From Actinobacteria bacterium UBA5176 (GTDB lineage: Bacteria; Actinomycetota; UBA4738): a DNA stretch of 17,417 nucleotides. The notes under the pieces are model-generated. The model made no database searches. It had not been told where the DNA came from and saw nothing but the letters and a program-made list of their open reading frames with translations. Location of the stretch: the NCBI GenBank assembly GCA_002413305.1, contig DHWS01000071.1, positions 58,209 through 75,625 of the forward strand, read 5' to 3'. A program made the translations under genes and the position numbers. Below, piece by piece: positions 8,411 through 16,007 of this stretch; within the stretch, counting starts at the first letter, position 1; the number at the start of each line of letters is the position of its first letter.

Positions 8411-9130
8411 CTAGACGCGGCTGGACGGGCAGAGATCGCTGACCGGACAGACCTCGCATCTCGGCGTGGGCGCCTTGCAGACCTGTCGGCCGTGGTCGAT
8501 CAGCACGTACGTGAACGGGAACCAGTCCTTGCGCGGGATGATCCGCATGAGGTCCTGTTCGATCCGGTCGGGATCGTTCTCCTGGGTGAAGCCCAGGCGT
8601 TGGCTCACCCTCCGGACGTGGGTATCGACCGCGATACCGGCGCTCTTGTCCGTGCGATGGCGTTCGGGATAGCTGTTGCCCTGCACGATGTTCGCTGTCT
8701 TCCGGGCTACCCCGGGGAACGTGATGAGCTCCGACATGGTCTGCGGCACCTGGCCGCCGTACCGTTCGACGATCACCCGGCAGGCGCCGCGGACGGACTT
8801 CGTCTTCTGGTTGAAGAAGCCGGTGGGCTTGAGCGCTTGTGCCAGATCGGCCTCCGGCACCCGCAAGTAGTCCTCGGGCGTCCGGTACTTCTTGAAGAGC
8901 GTGGCGGTGACCTCGTTGACCTTTTGATCGGTGCACTGCGCCGAAAGGATCGTGGCGATCAGCATCTCCAGGGGGTTGGAGAAGTTGAGGGCGACGTGCG
9001 CGTCCGGGTAGGCCTTCCTCAGGCGGCGGATCACCACGGGGGCGCGCTCCGCCAGCAGGCTGTCGCGGGTGAGCCCGGGCTTCGGAGGCTTCGGCGCCGG
9101 CCGGGGCTTGGGCGGCTTGATCGCGTCCAT
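8411..9130 (-). CDS. nth: endonuclease III
   Basis: A bifunctional DNA glycosylase/AP lyase of base excision repair that removes oxidised pyrimidines. The helix-hairpin-helix is at about 132-150 (LITFPGVARKTANIV) with catalytic Lys144, and the second catalytic residue is Asp169 in VDTHV. The C-terminal Cys218-x6-Cys225-x2-Cys228-x5-Cys234 pattern binds a 4Fe-4S cluster. Two oddities are visible: an N-terminal extension rich in Lys and Pro (about residues 5-19), and an insert of roughly ten residues, PERHRTDKSA, just before the catalytic Asp. The ATG at 9130 overlaps the upstream stop as TGATG and has GGGGGAAG upstream; a GTG at 9133 directly precedes it. It is the last gene of the leftward run and is not metabolically related to it. 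Confidence 0.92.
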   Translation of the reverse strand: MDAIKPPKPRPAPKPPKPGLTRDSLLAERAPVVIRRLRKAYPDAHVALNFSNPLEMLIATILSAQCTDQKVNEVTATLFKKYRTPEDYLRVPEADLAQALKPTGFFNQKTKSVRGACRVIVERYGGQVPQTMSELITFPGVARKTANIVQGNSYPERHRTDKSAGIAVDTHVRRVSQRLGFTQENDPDRIEQDLMRIIPRKDWFPFTYVLIDHGRQVCKAPTPRCEVCPVSDLCPSSRV

Positions 9131-9915
9131 CACTTCCCCCGGAACTTGGGCGAACGTCGCTCACGGAACGCTCGGATGCCTTCCCGCAGGTCCTCGCTGC
9201 CGAACGCCTCGGCCGCCATCGCGTCGAACTCCGACACGCGGTCGCTCTCGCCGAACCGGTCGACCGAGAGGTGTTCGATGGCGGTTCGGACCCCACGCTT
9301 CGCACCTCGAACCGAGAGCGGGGCGAGGCCGGCGATGCGTTCGGCCAGCGCGAAGGTCCGCTCGGTCAGCTCCGCGGCAGGGACGGCCACGTTCGCCAGC
9401 CCCCACGCGGCCGCCCCGGCGCCACTCACGACTCGGCCCGCATAGAGGATCTCCCCGGCACGCTTCGGCCCAACCGAGAGCACCAGGCGTTCGATGCTCT
9501 CGAAGTTCGGGAGGATGCCGAGCTTGCCCGACGGGATGCCGATGCGGGCGTCCTCGGCGGCCACCGCCAGGTCGCACGCCACCACGATCTGGCACCCTGC
9601 GCCCAGGGCCGAACCTTGCACCTCGGCGATCACCGGGTTCGGGTGCGTGGAGACGGTACGAAGGGACGCCTCGAACCCGCTGGCGTAGTCGCGGTCGGCC
9701 CGTATGATCGTGACGTCGGACAGGTCCGCGCCTGCGCAGAAGTCGGCGCCCTCGCCGGCCAGGATGACCGCCCTGACCTGCGGTTCTGCGTCCAATGCGT
9801 CGAACGCCGCGGCGAGCTCTTCGAGCATGTCGTGGGAGACGGCGTTTCGCTGGTCGGGACGATCGAGGACCACGCGAGCCACCCCCGCGAAGCGTTCGAC
9901 CCTGACCTGCGGCAC
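9130..9915 (-). CDS. enoyl-CoA hydratase/isomerase (crotonase) family protein without the catalytic Glu pair
   Basis: A crotonase-fold protein of 261 residues. The CoA-binding and oxyanion-hole segments are clear: GADFCAGADLSD at about 56-67 and GSALGAGCQIVVACDLAVAAEDARIG around 100-125. In enoyl-CoA hydratase two glutamates activate water, one in GGGCEL and one in GQPE. Here these positions read GAGCQI and GIPS, so both are lost. The protein is therefore unlikely to be an ordinary enoyl-CoA hydratase. Crotonase relatives with other residues catalyse isomerisation, decarboxylation, hydrolysis or C-C bond cleavage. It lies 15 bases after the biotin carrier gene and overlaps nth. The ATG at 9915 starts MPQVRVERF, the usual first beta-strand. 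The substrate is unknown but should be a CoA thioester. Confidence 0.82.
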   Translation of the reverse strand: MPQVRVERFAGVARVVLDRPDQRNAVSHDMLEELAAAFDALDAEPQVRAVILAGEGADFCAGADLSDVTIIRADRDYASGFEASLRTVSTHPNPVIAEVQGSALGAGCQIVVACDLAVAAEDARIGIPSGKLGILPNFESIERLVLSVGPKRAGEILYAGRVVSGAGAAAWGLANVAVPAAELTERTFALAERIAGLAPLSVRGAKRGVRTAIEHLSVDRFGESDRVSEFDAMAAEAFGSEDLREGIRAFRERRSPKFRGK

Positions 9916-9930: not shown

Positions 9931-10143
9931 CTACTCGACGACGGCGATCACGTCGCCCTCCTGGACGACGCCGCCCTCCGCGACCCGAACCTCCTTCACG
10001 AGGCCGGCCAGCGGCGCCTCGACCGGGATCTCCATCTTCATGGATTCGAGGATGACCAGGAAGTCGCCCGCTTCGACCCGGTCGCCCGGCGCGGCGACGA
10101 CCTTCCAGACGTTGGCCACCATCTCGGCGAGGACCTCGGCCAC
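9931..10143 (-). CDS. biotin carboxyl carrier protein, free-standing
   Basis: A 70-residue single biotinyl/lipoyl domain. Lys36 in ILESMKMEIP is the lysine that is biotinylated, and the half-domains VAAPGDRVEAGD and VAEGGVVQEGD show the internal two-fold repeat of the fold. It shuttles carboxyl-biotin between the biotin carboxylase and the carboxyltransferase encoded in the same run. The GTG at 10143 follows the stop of the BKACE gene by two bases. Its product starts MAEVLAEMVANVWK, the usual opening of small actinobacterial carriers. This independent carrier contrasts with alpha subunits that fuse carboxylase and carrier; the carboxylase here indeed lacks a C-terminal carrier domain. Confidence 0.9.
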   Translation of the reverse strand: MAEVLAEMVANVWKVVAAPGDRVEAGDFLVILESMKMEIPVEAPLAGLVKEVRVAEGGVVQEGDVIAVVE

Positions 10144-10145
10144 GG

Positions 10146-11033
10146 TCAGGCGAGGACCTTCGAGCGGTCGGGCTCGGCCGGGAGCGACAACAGCTCACGG
10201 GCCCGGGCCGGCTCGGCGACCTCGCGGCCCTGCATGCGGACGATCTGGGCGGCCGCTTCGACCAGCTCGCCGTTGCTGGCGACCATGTCCCCGGACGGAA
10301 GGTAGAAGTTGTCCTCCAGGCCGACCCGGACGTTGCCGCCCAGCGCGGCCGAGGCCCCGGCCATCATCCACTGGTCCCGGCTGACGGCGATCATGCCCCA
10401 CGTGCACCGGTCAGGCACCACGCTCGACATGTGGGCGAGGTTCCGGGCGGTGGCGCTGATCCCGCCGAGCACCCCGTGGATGAGCGAGAACTGGATGGGC
10501 GTGGTGAGGACGCCGAGGTCGATGAGCGGTTCGACCGATTCGACGTGGCCGACGTCGAAGCACTCGCACTCGGGCTTCACGCCGGCCTTGTTCATCTGCT
10601 CCAGCAGGAAGATGATGTCCTCGAAGCGGTTCTCGAAGACGAAGTTGAACACGAAACCCTTCCGCCTCGGGCTGTATTTCGCGTAGTTCATCGAGCCCAT
10701 GTTCAGCGCGCCGATCTCGGGCCGGAGCTCGGTGATGTGGGCGACCCGGTCCTTCATGGGCAGGCCGACCCAGCCGGTCGAGTAGTTGATGATGATGTCC
10801 GGGGTCTCGGCGAGGATGGCCTGCGTGATCGCCTTGTAGTGCTCGGGCTTGACGGTGGGGGCGCCGTTCGGCTCGCGGGCGTGGATGTGGACCATCGACG
10901 CGCCGGCGTCGCGCGCCCTCCGGATCTCCTTCCCGTATTCCTCCGGTGTGTAGGGGATAGCCGCGCATTGGTCCTTGTTCGCGACGGCACCCGAGACGGC
11001 GCAGGTGATGATGCAGGGTTCGTCGACGGTCAC
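10146..11033 (-). CDS. BKACE (DUF849) beta-keto acid cleavage enzyme
   Basis: A 295-residue TIM-barrel enzyme of the BKACE family, whose founding member Kce splits 3-keto-5-aminohexanoate with acetyl-CoA into acetoacetate and an acyl-CoA. The zinc ligands His49 and His51 in MVHIHAREPNG and Glu240 in RVGLEDN are present, as are IINYSTG, ECECFD and the GVLGG loop that define the family. BKACE members differ in the keto acid they accept, so the lysine-fermentation substrate should not be assumed. A role in producing or consuming an acyl-CoA fits the carboxylase and crotonases around it. The GTG at 11033 overlaps the upstream stop as GTGA, with AAGGGGAAG before it, so its translation is coupled to the candidate selenoprotein upstream. 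Confidence 0.88.
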   Translation of the reverse strand: MTVDEPCIITCAVSGAVANKDQCAAIPYTPEEYGKEIRRARDAGASMVHIHAREPNGAPTVKPEHYKAITQAILAETPDIIINYSTGWVGLPMKDRVAHITELRPEIGALNMGSMNYAKYSPRRKGFVFNFVFENRFEDIIFLLEQMNKAGVKPECECFDVGHVESVEPLIDLGVLTTPIQFSLIHGVLGGISATARNLAHMSSVVPDRCTWGMIAVSRDQWMMAGASAALGGNVRVGLEDNFYLPSGDMVASNGELVEAAAQIVRMQGREVAEPARARELLSLPAEPDRSKVLA

Positions 11034-11596
11034 GTCTTCCCCTTCAACCGGTGTAGGAGTTCGAGGATCGGTCCGTTCGGCGGATTATCGGTCACATCCC
11101 GGTTCCGGTGCGCGTACCGCACGATCCCTTTGGTGTCGATGACGAACGTGCCCGGCATCTGCATGATGTCCTCGCCCGGCTTCCAGCTCGGCGTGGGGAT
11201 GTCGGACAGGACACGTGCCTTCGCCCATCCGAAGTAGACCCGCGGGCCCATGACCTGCCGGAGGGATCCTCGCTTGAGCCCGTAAGCGCGGTGCGCCGCG
11301 TTTCCCGGGTCGCTGGTGCAGACGAACGGCTTCAGCTTCCGCTCCTCGCAGAACCACTCCGCGCGGGCCGGTGCCCCGAGCCCGATCAGGACGACCCGAC
11401 CACCAGCCCGCGTGAACTTCGAACCATCGCCGCGCAACTGCACGGCATGCTCCTGGCAGAAGCTTCAGCCGTAATGGCGCAGGAACGCCGCCACGACGGG
11501 CCGCTCCCTCCAGAAGGACGAAAGCATGACCTCGCGTCCTCCGGCGTCGAGCACGGCGTGATCGGGCGCGCGGTCACCGACCTCGGGTTTGGGCAT
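11030..11596 (-). CDS. AhpC/TSA-like thioredoxin-fold selenoprotein (UxxC), read through an in-frame TGA
   Basis: Read with TGA 11467-11465 as selenocysteine, the frame gives one 188-residue protein. Before the TGA are MPKPEVGDRAPDHAVL (1-16), the peroxiredoxin-like opening, and the strand PVVAAFLRHYG (33-43). After it come SFCQEHAVQLRGDG and the strand VVLIGLG, and near the end MPGTFVIDTKGIVRYAHRNRD, the closing strands of the fold. Relatives in the AhpC/TSA-like (PRXL2-type) group have Cys where the TGA falls, so the redox motif is Sec44-Ser-Phe-Cys47. A SECIS-like hairpin follows. Other cysteines lie in WFCEERKLKPFVC. The ATG at 11596 has no clear ribosome site. Likely role: peroxide or thiol-disulfide chemistry. 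Alternatives are a nonsense mutation or sequencing error, but both halves are conserved and in one frame. Conventional gene calling gives fragments 11465-11740 and 11030-11443. Confidence 0.8.
11425..11449 (-). promoter_or_regulatory. candidate bacterial SECIS element
   Basis: On the minus strand, GCCGUGC (11446-11440), loop AGUU (11439-11436) and GCGCGGC (11435-11429) form seven consecutive pairs, one of them G-U. A further U-G, A-U and C-G extend the stem around a single bulged A at 11427. The loop starts 25 bases after the TGA at 11465, has four bases, and has G within its first two positions. These fit the published bacterial SECIS rules as I know them (loop 16-37 bases from UGA, 3-14 bases long). 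The hairpin is coding sequence, as bacterial SECIS elements are. Confidence 0.7.
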
Positions 11597-11764: not shown

Positions 11765-13381
11765 TCAGACCGGCAGCACACCGTGCTTGCGCCAGGGGCG
11801 TTCGACCTTCTTCGACTCGCCGATCTCGAGGCCGCGGATGATCGTCGAACGCGTGTCGGCGGGATCGATGAGATCGTCGAGGAAGGACCAGCCGGCGGCG
11901 ATGTAGGCGCCGATCTGTTCCCGGATCCCGGCGACCAGCTGGTTGCGGACTGCGTCCTGGGCCGACCGGTCTCCGGCGGATTCGATCTGCCTGCGGAAGA
12001 TGATGTTCACCGCGCCCTCCGGTCCCATGACCGAGATCTCGGCGCTCGGCCAGCCGACGATCAGGTCGGGCTCATAGGCCCGGCCGTTCATCACGTAGTA
12101 GCCGGCTCCATACCCCTTGCGGAGCACCACGGTCAGCTTCGGCACCGTCGCCTCCGCGACGGCGAACAGCATCTTCGCGCCGTGGCGGATGATGCCCTGC
12201 TTCTCGACCGCCGAGCCGACCAGGAAGCCCGGGCAGTCCATCAGGAACACCAGCGGGATGTTGAACGCGTCGCACAGCCACACGAACCGCGCAGCCTTGT
12301 CCGCCGCATTCACGTCGAGCGCGCCGCCCAGCATCATCGGTTGGTTCGCCACGATCCCCGCCGGCCGCCCGCCGAAGCGCGCGAACCCCGTGACCAGATT
12401 TCGAGCCCATTCGGGCTTCATCGGGAAGAAGTCGCCGTCGTCCGCCAGCACCTTGACGATCTTGCGCATGTCGTACGCGTGCCGCGGGTTGGCGGGGACG
12501 ATGTCGTAGAGCTCCTCGCACCGGCGCTCGACCGGATCGACGGCGTCCACGCGAGGTGGCGGCGCCAGGTTCGAAGACGGGAAGTACCCGAGGTACTTGC
12601 GGACGGTCGCCAGGCACTCGCGGTCGTCCGCCACCTCGAGGTCGGCCACGCCACTCACCTTCGTGTGTACGGCGCTCCCGCCCATCTCCTCGGCGGTGAC
12701 GTCCTCCCCGACGGCGGCCTTGACCAGCGGCGGCCCGCCGAGCGCCATGTGCGAGGTCCCCTTGACCATCGGCACGAAGTCGGCCAGGCCGGGGATGTAC
12801 GCGGTACCCGCCGCGCCCGGCCCCATCATGGCCGCGACCTGCGGGACCACGCCGCTCATGAGGACCTGCTCGCGGAACAGGTCGCCGGTCCGGGCGAACA
12901 TGGACCCGCTCGCCTCCTGGATCCGCGCACCGGCCGAGTCGATCAGCCATACCACTGGGATGCGTTCGCGCAGCGCCAGCTCGCGCATCCTGGTGGCCTT
13001 CAACTCGCCCACCATGCCCAGCGAGCCGGCCATCACGGTGAAGTCATAGGCGATCACCGCCGCCCGGCGGCCCTCGATCTTGCCGATGCCCGTCACGCAG
13101 CCGTCGGCCGGGGTGAACTTCCCTTGCATCGACGGCGTCCCGGCTTGATGGTGCGCGAGCAGCGAGAACTCGGTGAAAGAGCCCGGGTCGAACAGCAGCT
13201 CCAGGCGCTCGCGGACGGTGAGCTTGCCGTCGGCGTGCTGCTTCGCCACCCGCTCGGGGCCGCCCATGCCCAGGAATTCGGCCCGCTTCTGCCGGAGCTG
13301 TTCGGCGTGGCCGCGAAGGTCCGGGCCCTGGTAGGTATAGGTGACGCCGGAGTGCTCGGGTGGCGCGGCTTCCTCGGCCAT
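11765..13381 (-). CDS. acyl-CoA carboxylase carboxyltransferase (beta) subunit
   Basis: A 538-residue carboxyltransferase of the PccB/MccB/AccD type that moves carboxyl from biotin to an acyl-CoA. Both crotonase-fold halves are complete. The N-terminal half has LIDSAGARIQEASGSMF and the oxyanion-hole MGPGAAGTAYIPGLADF. The C-terminal half has FLMDCPGFLVG and RKGYGAGYYVMNGRAYEPDLI with the following WPSAEISVMGPEGAVNII. The length is typical for propionyl- or methylcrotonyl-CoA carboxylase beta chains. GGPPLVKAAVGEDVTAEEMGG resembles the methylcrotonyl type while the region after it resembles the propionyl type, so I do not name a substrate. The ATG at 13381 has GAGGAGGT nine bases upstream. 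Its partners, a biotin carboxylase and a free biotin carrier, are in the same run. Confidence 0.88.
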   Translation of the reverse strand: MAEEAAPPEHSGVTYTYQGPDLRGHAEQLRQKRAEFLGMGGPERVAKQHADGKLTVRERLELLFDPGSFTEFSLLAHHQAGTPSMQGKFTPADGCVTGIGKIEGRRAAVIAYDFTVMAGSLGMVGELKATRMRELALRERIPVVWLIDSAGARIQEASGSMFARTGDLFREQVLMSGVVPQVAAMMGPGAAGTAYIPGLADFVPMVKGTSHMALGGPPLVKAAVGEDVTAEEMGGSAVHTKVSGVADLEVADDRECLATVRKYLGYFPSSNLAPPPRVDAVDPVERRCEELYDIVPANPRHAYDMRKIVKVLADDGDFFPMKPEWARNLVTGFARFGGRPAGIVANQPMMLGGALDVNAADKAARFVWLCDAFNIPLVFLMDCPGFLVGSAVEKQGIIRHGAKMLFAVAEATVPKLTVVLRKGYGAGYYVMNGRAYEPDLIVGWPSAEISVMGPEGAVNIIFRRQIESAGDRSAQDAVRNQLVAGIREQIGAYIAAGWSFLDDLIDPADTRSTIIRGLEIGESKKVERPWRKHGVLPV

Positions 13382-13457: not shown

Positions 13458-13901
13458 CTACCGCCGGCCGGTCAGCACGTCGTGCACCGGCTCCAGGGCC
13501 AGGCCGGCAAGTCCCCACAGCGGCGCGTAGTCGAATCGGATGAGCCCGTGGAGCTGGCGCCTGGCGTACGAGTAGTCCCACGGCGCCTGGCCGATCGCCG
13601 TGCGCAGTAGCCAGCCGGTCGTGTACTCCACGCCGAAGAACCCTGCCGCGTACACCGCCCCACGCAACGGCGCCGGAACCCGGTCCCGCATGGCGTCGTG
13701 GAGTGGCTCGAACATCGGCAAGAGCATCCCGTAGATCGGGAACATCCATAGGCTGGTCCGCGACGGCAGCCGGAGGTCGCGCGCCCGAGCGAAGTCGTGC
13801 AGGCCGGAGAACAGCACCTCCGCGCACCACCCGAACAGGCCATAGGCGACGAACCGGCCGGTCCGGCTGGGCACCTCGAAGCGGCTCAGCGGCCTTTCCA
13901 C
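13458..13901 (-). CDS. small membrane protein, PF06541 (putative ABC transporter type IV/CmpB) family
   Basis: A 147-residue membrane protein. FVAYGLFGWCAEVLFSGLHDF, SLWMFPIYGMLLPMFEPLHD, LRGAVYAAGFFGVEYTTGWLL and FDYAPLWGLAGLALEPVHDVL carry four hydrophobic segments and the GW, E, P-Y-G, VEY-GW and DY-PLW landmarks of the PF06541 family, annotated as a putative ABC-type permease of unknown function. The GTG at 13901, inside the last codons of the crotonase gene, is chosen because GGAAG lies five bases upstream; GTG 13874 is an alternative. The longer frame reaching back to 14522 is the shadow of the crotonase gene. Its place inside a carboxylase operon is not explained by any known role. Confidence 0.78.
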   Translation of the reverse strand: MERPLSRFEVPSRTGRFVAYGLFGWCAEVLFSGLHDFARARDLRLPSRTSLWMFPIYGMLLPMFEPLHDAMRDRVPAPLRGAVYAAGFFGVEYTTGWLLRTAIGQAPWDYSYARRQLHGLIRFDYAPLWGLAGLALEPVHDVLTGRR

Positions 13902-14671
13902 TCGGGCTTCCGCCTCGCGAAGAACGCGCTCACGCCCTCCGCGACGTCCTCGGTCTCGAGGTTGCGCGTGAGCATCGAACCCAGGTAGGCCAGCGCGTCG
14001 TCGAAGGACATGTCCTGGGCGCGGTGGAAGGACTCCTTGCCCAGCCGGAGGATGAGGGGACTCTTCGAGGCGAGCTCCTCGACCAACTCGTCCACAGCCG
14101 TGTCGAGCTCGGCCCGCGGGGCCGTCCGGTTCACCATCCCCCAGCGTTCGGCCTCCGCGGCGCTCCAGCGGCGACCGGTCAGCATCATCTCCATGGCGAT
14201 CTTCCGGGGCACGTTCCGTGCGATCACCGCGCTGATCAGGTAGGGCCACAGGCCAAGGTTGATCTCCGGCGTCCCGACCTGGACGTCGTCGGCCGCCACG
14301 GCCAGGTCGCATCCCAACATCAGGCCGAACCCCCCGGCCAGCGCGACGCCGTTCACACGGGCCACCACGGGCTGGGGGTGTTCGGCCAGGGTTCGGAGCA
14401 GCGTGGCCACCCGGTCCCCACGGTCGTGGGACGAGGCGCGGCCCTGGTCCGGCGCGAGGTTCCCTGCCAGGTCGCCGCCCGCACAGAAGGCCCGGTCCCC
14501 GGCGCCCGTCAGGACGACGCATCGGACGTCCGTGTCGCCGGCCGCGCGTCCCAGTCCGTCGAGGATGCCGTCGACCACTTCGTCCGACAGCGTGTTGCGC
14601 CGCTCCTCCCGGTCGATGGTCAGCCGAGCGGCGGATCCCATCGTCTCGTAGCGGACCGCTTCGGGTGCCAT
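13886..14671 (-). CDS. enoyl-CoA hydratase/isomerase family protein
   Basis: A 261-residue crotonase. RERRNTLSDEVVDGI at the N-terminus, DRAFCAGGDLAG and NGVALAGGFGLMLGCDLAVAADDVQVGTPEINLGLWP give the CoA site, the oxyanion hole and the catalytic Glu in GTPE. The other glutamate of classical hydratases is Gly here (GGFGL), as in many related hydratases and isomerases that keep only one acid. It ends with FFARRKPEWKGR, a normal crotonase tail. The ATG at 14671 lies 13 bases after the biotin carboxylase stop, without an obvious ribosome site; the upstream frame to 14740 is the carboxylase shadow. It probably hydrates or isomerises the unsaturated acyl-CoA made or used by the carboxylase, but the exact step is open. 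Confidence 0.87.
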   Translation of the reverse strand: MAPEAVRYETMGSAARLTIDREERRNTLSDEVVDGILDGLGRAAGDTDVRCVVLTGAGDRAFCAGGDLAGNLAPDQGRASSHDRGDRVATLLRTLAEHPQPVVARVNGVALAGGFGLMLGCDLAVAADDVQVGTPEINLGLWPYLISAVIARNVPRKIAMEMMLTGRRWSAAEAERWGMVNRTAPRAELDTAVDELVEELASKSPLILRLGKESFHRAQDMSFDDALAYLGSMLTRNLETEDVAEGVSAFFARRKPEWKGR

Positions 14672-14684
14672 GGCTGCGCCGAGC

Positions 14685-16007
14685 CTACTTCCCGAGCAGC
14701 CCGGTGTCGTAGTCGCCGGAGACGAACCGCTCGTCGGCAAACACAGCGAGCAAGGCCGGGAGGTTCGTCTTCAGGCCTTCGATGTGCAGCTTCTCCAGTA
14801 CGGAGGTTTGGAAGAGGTTGACGCGGTCCCCGGCGTGGATGATCACCTTGCCGATCAGGGGGTCGTAGAACATCGGCACGTCATCGCCAGCGCCGTACCC
14901 GAAGTCGAGCCGCCACTGTGAAGACTCCAAGGGAAGGTCGAACTCCAGACGGTGGATCCGGCCCGGGGAGGGGAGAAACGTCCGAGGATCCTCGGCATAG
15001 ACCCGGAACTCGATGCCGTGGCCATGCCGGGCGGGCGTGGCGGGCAGAGACATCCCCTCTCCAGAGGCGATCCGGAGCTGCTCCTCGACCAGGTCCACGC
15101 CGGTCGTGATCTCGGTGAGGGGGTGTTCGACCTGGATGCGGGCGTTGACCTCCAGGAAGAAGAACTCGCCTTCGGGGGTGAGGACGCACTCCACGGTTCC
15201 CGCGCCGCGGTAGCCGAGCTTCTCCATCGATCGGACGGCGGACCCGCACATCGAATGACGAAGCACCCGGTCCAGGGCGGGCGACGGGGTCTCTTCGATC
15301 ACCTTCTGATGGCGTCGCTGGACCGAACACTCCCGCTCGTACAGGTGAATGGTCCGATGGTCGTCGGCGAGGATCTGGATCTCGACGTGGCGGGCGTGCG
15401 GGACGTAGCGCTCGACGTAGACGCTGGGGTCAGCGAAGAACCTCGCCCCACGGGTGGATGCGGTCTCCACCGCGGACGCCAGCTGCGCCTCGTCACCGGC
15501 GATCCCCATCCCGATGCCGCCTCCGCCGCTGACCGCCTTGACCATCAGCGGGTAGCCGATCCTCGCCGCCGCCGCGACGGCTTCGAAGGGCTCGGTGAAC
15601 GGCCCGGCGCCGGGAAGCACCGGGAAGTCGGTCTCCGCGAACGCCCTGCGCGCGGCCACCTTGTCGCCGGTGAGCTCCAGAACCTCGGGGGGCGGTCCGA
15701 TCCACGCCAGCCCTGCACCGAGGCAGGCCCGGGCGAACATGGCGCTCTCGGCCAGAAACCCGTACCCGGGGTGGACGGCATCCGCGCCCGCCTCGCGTGC
15801 GGCGTCCACGATCGCCGCCGGGTTGAGGTACGAAGCGGGGGCCGGCGACTCGCCGATCCGGAAGGCCCGGTCCGCCTCACGGACGTGCTTCGCCCCCGCG
15901 TCGGCGTCCGAGTAGACGGCGACGGCTTCGGCGCCCAACCGTCGAAAGGTACGGAAGATCCGGCAGGCGATCTCGCCGCGGTTGGCGACCAGCACGGAAC
16001 GGAACAT
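14685..16007 (-). CDS. accC: biotin carboxylase subunit of an acyl-CoA carboxylase
   Basis: A 440-residue ATP-grasp biotin carboxylase that uses ATP and bicarbonate to carboxylate biotin on the carrier protein. The N-terminal domain opens VLVANRGEIACRIFRT, with HPGYGFLAE at 79-87 and Lys116. The glycine loop is MVKAVSGGGGIGMG (155-168), where E. coli AccC has GGGGRGM, so the loop arginine is Ile here. His207, the VQRRHQKVIEETPSP stretch and FFLEVNARIQVEHPLTE (283-299) supply the ATP, metal and bicarbonate sites. It ends right after the biotin carboxylase domain with no carrier domain, matching the separate carrier gene downstream. No Shine-Dalgarno sequence precedes ATG 16007; TATCCT lies ten bases upstream of it, so the message may be short-leadered. 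It is the first gene of the run. Confidence 0.92.
   Translation of the reverse strand: MFRSVLVANRGEIACRIFRTFRRLGAEAVAVYSDADAGAKHVREADRAFRIGESPAPASYLNPAAIVDAAREAGADAVHPGYGFLAESAMFARACLGAGLAWIGPPPEVLELTGDKVAARRAFAETDFPVLPGAGPFTEPFEAVAAAARIGYPLMVKAVSGGGGIGMGIAGDEAQLASAVETASTRGARFFADPSVYVERYVPHARHVEIQILADDHRTIHLYERECSVQRRHQKVIEETPSPALDRVLRHSMCGSAVRSMEKLGYRGAGTVECVLTPEGEFFFLEVNARIQVEHPLTEITTGVDLVEEQLRIASGEGMSLPATPARHGHGIEFRVYAEDPRTFLPSPGRIHRLEFDLPLESSQWRLDFGYGAGDDVPMFYDPLIGKVIIHAGDRVNLFQTSVLEKLHIEGLKTNLPALLAVFADERFVSGDYDTGLLGK

Follow-up and report, generated by a model that had tools for sequence, protein, structure and literature searches.

The window, by which we mean the whole 17,417-nt stretch that was analysed and to which all coordinates below refer, comes from contig DHWS01000071.1 (58,209-75,625) of Actinobacteria bacterium UBA5176 (GCA_002413305.1). 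Seven genes lie here on the same strand in the order biotin carboxylase, enoyl-CoA hydratase, carboxyltransferase, selenoprotein (predicted), BKACE, biotin carrier and enoyl-CoA hydratase, with these features:

14685..16007, minus strand: biotin carboxylase (PF02786, PF00289, PF02785)
13886..14710, minus strand: second enoyl-CoA hydratase family protein (PF00378, 192 bits; start codon uncertain)
11765..13381, minus strand: biotin-dependent acyl-CoA carboxyltransferase, the upstream neighbour (PF01039, 547 bits)
11030..11596, minus strand: predicted selenoprotein gene, 188 codons plus stop, with predicted Sec44; SelL-related/AhpC-TSA redox protein
11465..11467, minus strand: in-frame TGA, the predicted Sec44 codon, aligned to Cys or TGA in relatives
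11456..11458, minus strand: TGC encoding Cys47, the C that closes the UxxC motif (from sequence and alignment)
11441..11454, minus strand: AGGAG (11450-11454) with an in-frame GTG (11441-11443), a possible restart site read by eye
11429..11446, minus strand: SECIS-like hairpin, 7-bp stem GCCGTGC/GCGCGGC with an AGTT loop (11436-11439)
10146..11033, minus strand: BKACE, a beta-keto acid cleavage enzyme (PF05853, 303 bits); its GTG start overlaps the selenoprotein stop (GTGA)
9931..10143, minus strand: biotin carrier protein (NF004547, 104.1 bits, cut-off 75)
9130..9915, minus strand: enoyl-CoA hydratase family protein (PF00378, 184 bits)

The interval between the second hydratase gene and the carboxyltransferase gene (13460-13885, minus strand) holds a small reading frame that looks membrane protein-like by eye. 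BKACE falls below every curated cut-off among its own NCBIfam matches. Within the window there are no tRNA genes, an Rfam scan at gathering thresholds gave no match, and a promoter and terminator scan was uninformative.

A sequence-only reading of this DNA had described a single minus-strand frame from ATG 11596 to the stop at 11030 that is broken by one TGA, and the sequence confirms it. The ATG (11596-11594) opens 43 sense codons, itself counted, before the TGA at 11467-11465, and 144 more sense codons follow up to a terminal TGA (11032-11030) that overlaps the BKACE GTG (11033); codon 44 is the sole break. The residues flanking it, FLRHYG-U-SFCQEHAVQLR, contain a UxxC motif made of Sec44 and Cys47. 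As had also been anticipated, standard annotation truncates the gene: a 137-residue mechanical open reading frame and the database protein P0002, truncated to the same length, both start at the GTG at 11443, behind the TGA. Standard gene calling thus shortens this candidate selenoprotein gene, and the same probably applies to its relatives. Our search found 43 database proteins, of which 24 are 132-146 residues long, and all 12 of the short ones among the matches listed start downstream of residue 44; we infer that such short proteins derive from TGA-bearing genes. The 15 full-length database proteins placed in our tree all carry CxxC.

Such a frame could instead be a pseudogene, in which the TGA is a true stop created by a nonsense mutation or an assembly error, and mechanical gene calling and the database, which give just the 137-residue piece, fit that idea. 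It is countered by P0002 itself, which represents 10 member sequences on 16 contigs, and above all by the state of codon 44 in relatives. We combined 28 loci from the class with 80 from named genomes, the latter chosen as the best of 473 relatives. Of these 108 loci, 91 could be aligned and 17 gave no match. Codon 44 was Cys in 73 loci, TGA in 15 and Thr in 3, a count in which a few assemblies are present twice and the 15 TGA loci include the gene under study and one locus, L047, from a different Prx-like family. Every one of the 73 Cys loci has Cys at both 44 and 47, and all 15 TGA loci have Cys at 47; no TGA was seen at codon 47 in any of the 91. A TGA thus stands in frame where homologues have Cys, as in bacterial selenoproteins, and the single TGA coincides with an active-site Cys, which argues against a pseudogene. 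Lack of a conserved Cys in homologues had been named beforehand as grounds for abandoning the selenocysteine reading, and the 73 Cys loci remove those grounds.

The exchange recurs at several phylogenetic distances. TGA occupies the same codon in a member of the same family but another genus (L022, FLRHYG-U-TFC) and in a member of another family of the same order (L024, FLRHYG-U-AFC), and the nearest Cys forms, P0003-P0006 (FLRHYGCTFC), are 60-62% identical to the protein. A 396-genome sample of the phylum gave 15 matches above the NF040769 cut-off, 12 of them with a single TGA, which always occupies codon 44 and is accompanied by Cys at 47. In a family tree of 121 rows, the state changes between Cys and Sec 11 times, at least 9 of them forced by well-supported branches; the protein, L022 and the Cys forms P0003-P0007 make up one supported group, with L024 beside it. 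Other genomes carry TGA at this codon too, so it is no chance stop, and its presence there in other genera and phyla makes the pseudogene explanation very unlikely. Substitution rates also argue against decay, with dN lower than dS both before and after the TGA; downstream of it, dN is 0.23 and dS 0.74 against L022, and 0.43 and 0.67 against L024.

More distant members from the phylum search, L150, L152 and L158, also have one TGA at codon 44, with other hairpins. Contig C130 of genome G049 carries two adjacent TGA-bearing matches (56125-56622 and 56700-57194). The relatives L159 and L160 read FWRHNGCSCGF: the first Cys is retained, Gly stands at codon 47, and another Cys lies one residue earlier.

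The genome encodes the means to insert selenocysteine, even though it is a draft of 2.99 Mb in 176 contigs at 81% completeness. It contains SelA (268 bits, in a match that reaches the contig end), SelB (297 bits, cut-off 242) directly adjoining SelA on contig C88, a tRNA-Sec with a TCA anticodon (73.8 bits, cut-off 47) and SelD (368 bits; locus L017, genome G000, contig C108:12980-13909), which is the machinery expected of a selenoprotein-making bacterium. Its absence, which would have spoken against selenocysteine, is therefore not what we found. The SelD gene itself carries TGA in frame at its canonical Sec site, in the context GAG-U-ACK; PMC13188914 gives UxxK as the motif of SelD. The same genome holds a second Prx-like gene with TGA as the U of UxxC (L047:1486-1797; G000 contig C110:17859-18155; FSMGST-U-AGC), with a 6-bp stem and an AGTTG loop downstream of the TGA, and this is another selenoprotein candidate.

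Across the class, SelA was found in 25 of 27 genomes and tRNA-Sec in 15 of 27; both occur in each of the 8 genomes with a completeness of 90% or more and a contamination of 5% or less. No tRNA-Sec match was obtained in the draft genomes G026 and G002, which belong to the two nearest relatives that bear the TGA. SelA is complete in G026; G002 has a piece of SelA and a piece of SelB below the cut-off. We also looked for SelA in the genomes behind 50 of the 80 loci from named genomes. Of the 11 genomes with TGA forms 10 had it, versus 12 of the 39 with Cys forms (Fisher p = 5e-4, a value that ignores relatedness). The one TGA-form genome with no SelA match, that of L080, has SelB above the cut-off, and another, that of L093, has SelA with its best SelB match below the cut-off.

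These genes also bear on whether the genetic code has changed, or natural suppression operates, so that TGA is read as some other amino acid. The frame would be open with any residue at the TGA, but the genome has both a tRNA-Sec and SelB, TGA coincides with Cys/Sec positions both in this gene and in SelD, and TGA also terminates this gene and 4 of the 7 neighbouring genes checked. We regard this as the least probable of the alternatives, with hardly any weight left to it.

Downstream of the TGA lies a hairpin with the properties of a bacterial SECIS element. It starts 21 nt from the T of the TGA with a spacing of 25 nt, has a predicted energy of -13.8 kcal/mol, and consists of a 7-bp stem and a 4-nt loop (AGUU) with G at the second loop position. 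By direct comparison, it falls within all of the constraints that PMC13188914 quotes (a loop of 3-9, a stem of 4-16, a G at loop position 1 or 2, 16-37 nt of spacing and an MFE no higher than -7.5 kcal/mol).

Pairing at this site was compared with synonymous randomisation. The 33 distinct TGA sequences form 5.45 of the 7 pairs on average, as against 3.82 (sd 0.19) when randomised, in which the highest of 1000 trials reached 4.33. The 74 Cys sequences average 3.34 pairs versus 3.03 when randomised (highest 3.32) and so also lie slightly above the randomised range. At the exact offset of the hairpin, at least 6 pairs form in 20 of 33 TGA relatives versus 6 of 74 Cys relatives. Covariation points the same way in 19 relatives with an AGTT loop, a set that leaves out the sequence under study and whose rows were picked after viewing folds: 97% of cells pair versus 85% in shuffled controls, compensatory change occurs at 5 of 7 pairs (reached by 3 of 500 shuffles), and controls slid along the alignment pair at 55% or less. 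In a wider set of 32 rows from all subfamilies, pairing is 79% versus 64% shuffled, and doubly changed pairs are not unusual, being equalled in 138 of 500 shuffles. A covarying hairpin downstream of the TGA likewise argues against a pseudogene, and together with the evidence from relatives it leaves that explanation only a very slim chance.

A model built from the 19 relatives, again without the sequence under study, places its site at 56.8 bits, with the next site in the window at 10.7, a score that partly reflects coding similarity because L022 and L024 are in the model. When the genome was scanned with this hairpin model (R1), the next best match reached 17.3 bits, and the model therefore indicates no other selenoproteins.

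The restart candidate behind the TGA suggests a further possibility, namely that the TGA terminates and a shorter protein begins at GTG 11443 behind the AGGAG. The AGGAG lies right behind the TGA together with the GTG, L022 and L024 likewise have AGGAG or GGAG with GTG, and such pieces are present in the database. However, a protein of this kind would contain neither motif residue, residues 1-43 are conserved in frame among relatives, and the Cys forms are single full-length proteins. Moreover, GGAG, AGGA or GAGG soon after the TGA occurs in just 8 of 34 TGA sequences, one of them a duplicate assembly. We give this reading slightly less credence than the pseudogene, which is to say very little.

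Taken together, the frame open on both sides, the interchange of Cys and TGA, the selenocysteine machinery in the genome and the covarying hairpin lead us to regard it as highly probable that codon 44 is read as selenocysteine, as the sequence-only reading had proposed. The product would be a 188-residue thioredoxin-fold UxxC redox protein, likely to reduce peroxides or disulfides. SelB carrying Sec-tRNA would bind the hairpin and insert Sec; Sec44, placed where the first long helix begins, would attack the substrate, Cys47 would resolve the selenenylsulfide, and a thioredoxin-type reductant would reset the enzyme. The least certain step is the setting, which may lie near short-chain acyl-CoA or beta-keto acid breakdown because the neighbours are acyl-CoA carboxylase, hydratase and BKACE genes.

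The order carboxyltransferase-selenoprotein-BKACE is common to three genera. It recurs in L050, from the same assembly as L022, with about 1.4 kb between carboxyltransferase and selenoprotein, and in L024, with about 0.5 kb between them; in the Cys form L054/L028, a carboxyltransferase lies about 1 kb downstream instead. No BKACE match (E <= 1e-8) was found in the other loci from L022 upward, whose flanks span 1.5-5 kb and are often ended by contig ends.

Read-through of the TGA had been thought necessary for ribosomes to reach BKACE, a claim that our analysis does not support. By eye, GGGGA stands just upstream of the BKACE GTG and AGGAG-GTG stands behind the TGA, so BKACE may be translated without read-through, by an independent start or a restart. 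The restart GTG falls inside the 5' arm of the SECIS-like hairpin, and all three genomes with the shared gene order have AGGAG or GGAG with GTG behind the TGA. Because Sec codon, hairpin and restart site overlap, one could imagine a selenium-sensing operon switch, in which selenium supply would decide between the full enzyme and a restart behind the TGA and hence set BKACE translation; we consider such a switch improbable.

UxxC Prx-like selenoproteins as such are already known. They have been in print since at least 2005 (PMC1088965, PMC2398784, PMC9312934, PMC13188914), and Table 1 of PMC13188914 and Table 2 of PMC2398784 list PF00578 Prx-like selenoproteins with UxxC/UxxU; the former paper also names a UxxC protein of the Redoxin family (PF08534) and a UxxS protein that is peroxiredoxin-like (cd02970). 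Its main text contains none of the terms NF040769, SelL, Actinomycet or Actinobacteri, and none of the terms sought occurs in the main text of the deep-Sep paper (PMC12013277). In a search that covered few subscription journals, we found no publication on SelL-related proteins, none that links BKACE to selenocysteine or a selenoprotein to beta-keto acid cleavage, and none on AhpC selenoproteins of uncultured Actinobacteria or Chloroflexi. The carboxyltransferase-selenoprotein-BKACE neighbourhood in three genera thus appears to be new, as we did not find it in print. A pattern search of viral contigs gave 44 matching stretches, and no relative was encoded in any of them.

These results outline a branch of predicted selenium redox proteins that spans actinobacteria, Chloroflexota and Planctomycetota. 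Databases store these proteins as 'peroxiredoxin' pieces of 130-140 residues, and many are known from metagenome-assembled genomes alone. One group is tied to a beta-keto acid/acyl-CoA cluster, which provides a concrete lead for substrate and selenium-dependent metabolism.

The AhpC/TSA-like thioredoxin fold suggested from the sequence is upheld by profile and structural comparison. With C at position 44, the protein scores 134.2 bits against NF040769, the NCBIfam 'SelL-related redox protein' (cut-off 120; 125.4 bits for the gene in the genome search), a cut-off also exceeded by L022, L024 and the Cys forms P0003 and P0025. It passes PF00578 (AhpC-TSA; 60.7 bits, cut-off 26), PF13911 (AhpC-TSA_2; 47.5 bits, cut-off 27, over residues 57-166) and Pfam Redoxin. 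An AlphaFold2 model (pLDDT 91) has a thioredoxin/peroxiredoxin fold with a helix at 45-56, and residue 44 lies immediately before it. Its top structural matches are Bcp/AhpE peroxiredoxins, with human prostamide/PGF synthase at rank 9.

SelL proper has two Sec residues in a UxxU motif, whereas codon 47 here is TGC and the motif UxxC. The protein is also PRXL2/SelU-like in combining a PF13911 match above the gathering score with a UxxC motif. Human prostamide/PGF synthase (9us9, 9usa), which is PRXL2B and kin of SelU, has a similar fold, and its CxxC aligns with residues 44 and 47; the deposited mutant is C44S/C47S. Identity over the fold match is 22%, and the gene differs in having a predicted bacterial SECIS within its own coding region. 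A defining activity of PRXL2/SelU-like proteins would be reduction of an endoperoxide or other peroxide. Classical peroxiredoxins (Bcp/PrxQ, AhpE) are the best solved-structure matches by both sequence and fold, but their PxxxTxxC/U motif is absent: residues 40-47 read RHYGUSFC, with Arg at 40 and the TGA codon at 44. PxxxTxxU is the form quoted for peroxiredoxins in PMC13188914. The UxxC motif and the lack of PxxxTxxC rule out both a classical peroxiredoxin and SelL proper. With the Prx-like thiol:disulfide oxidoreductase selenoproteins (PF00578, UxxC/UxxU) the protein shares both Pfam domain and UxxC, and it is likely a selenol/thiol reductase of peroxides or disulfides.
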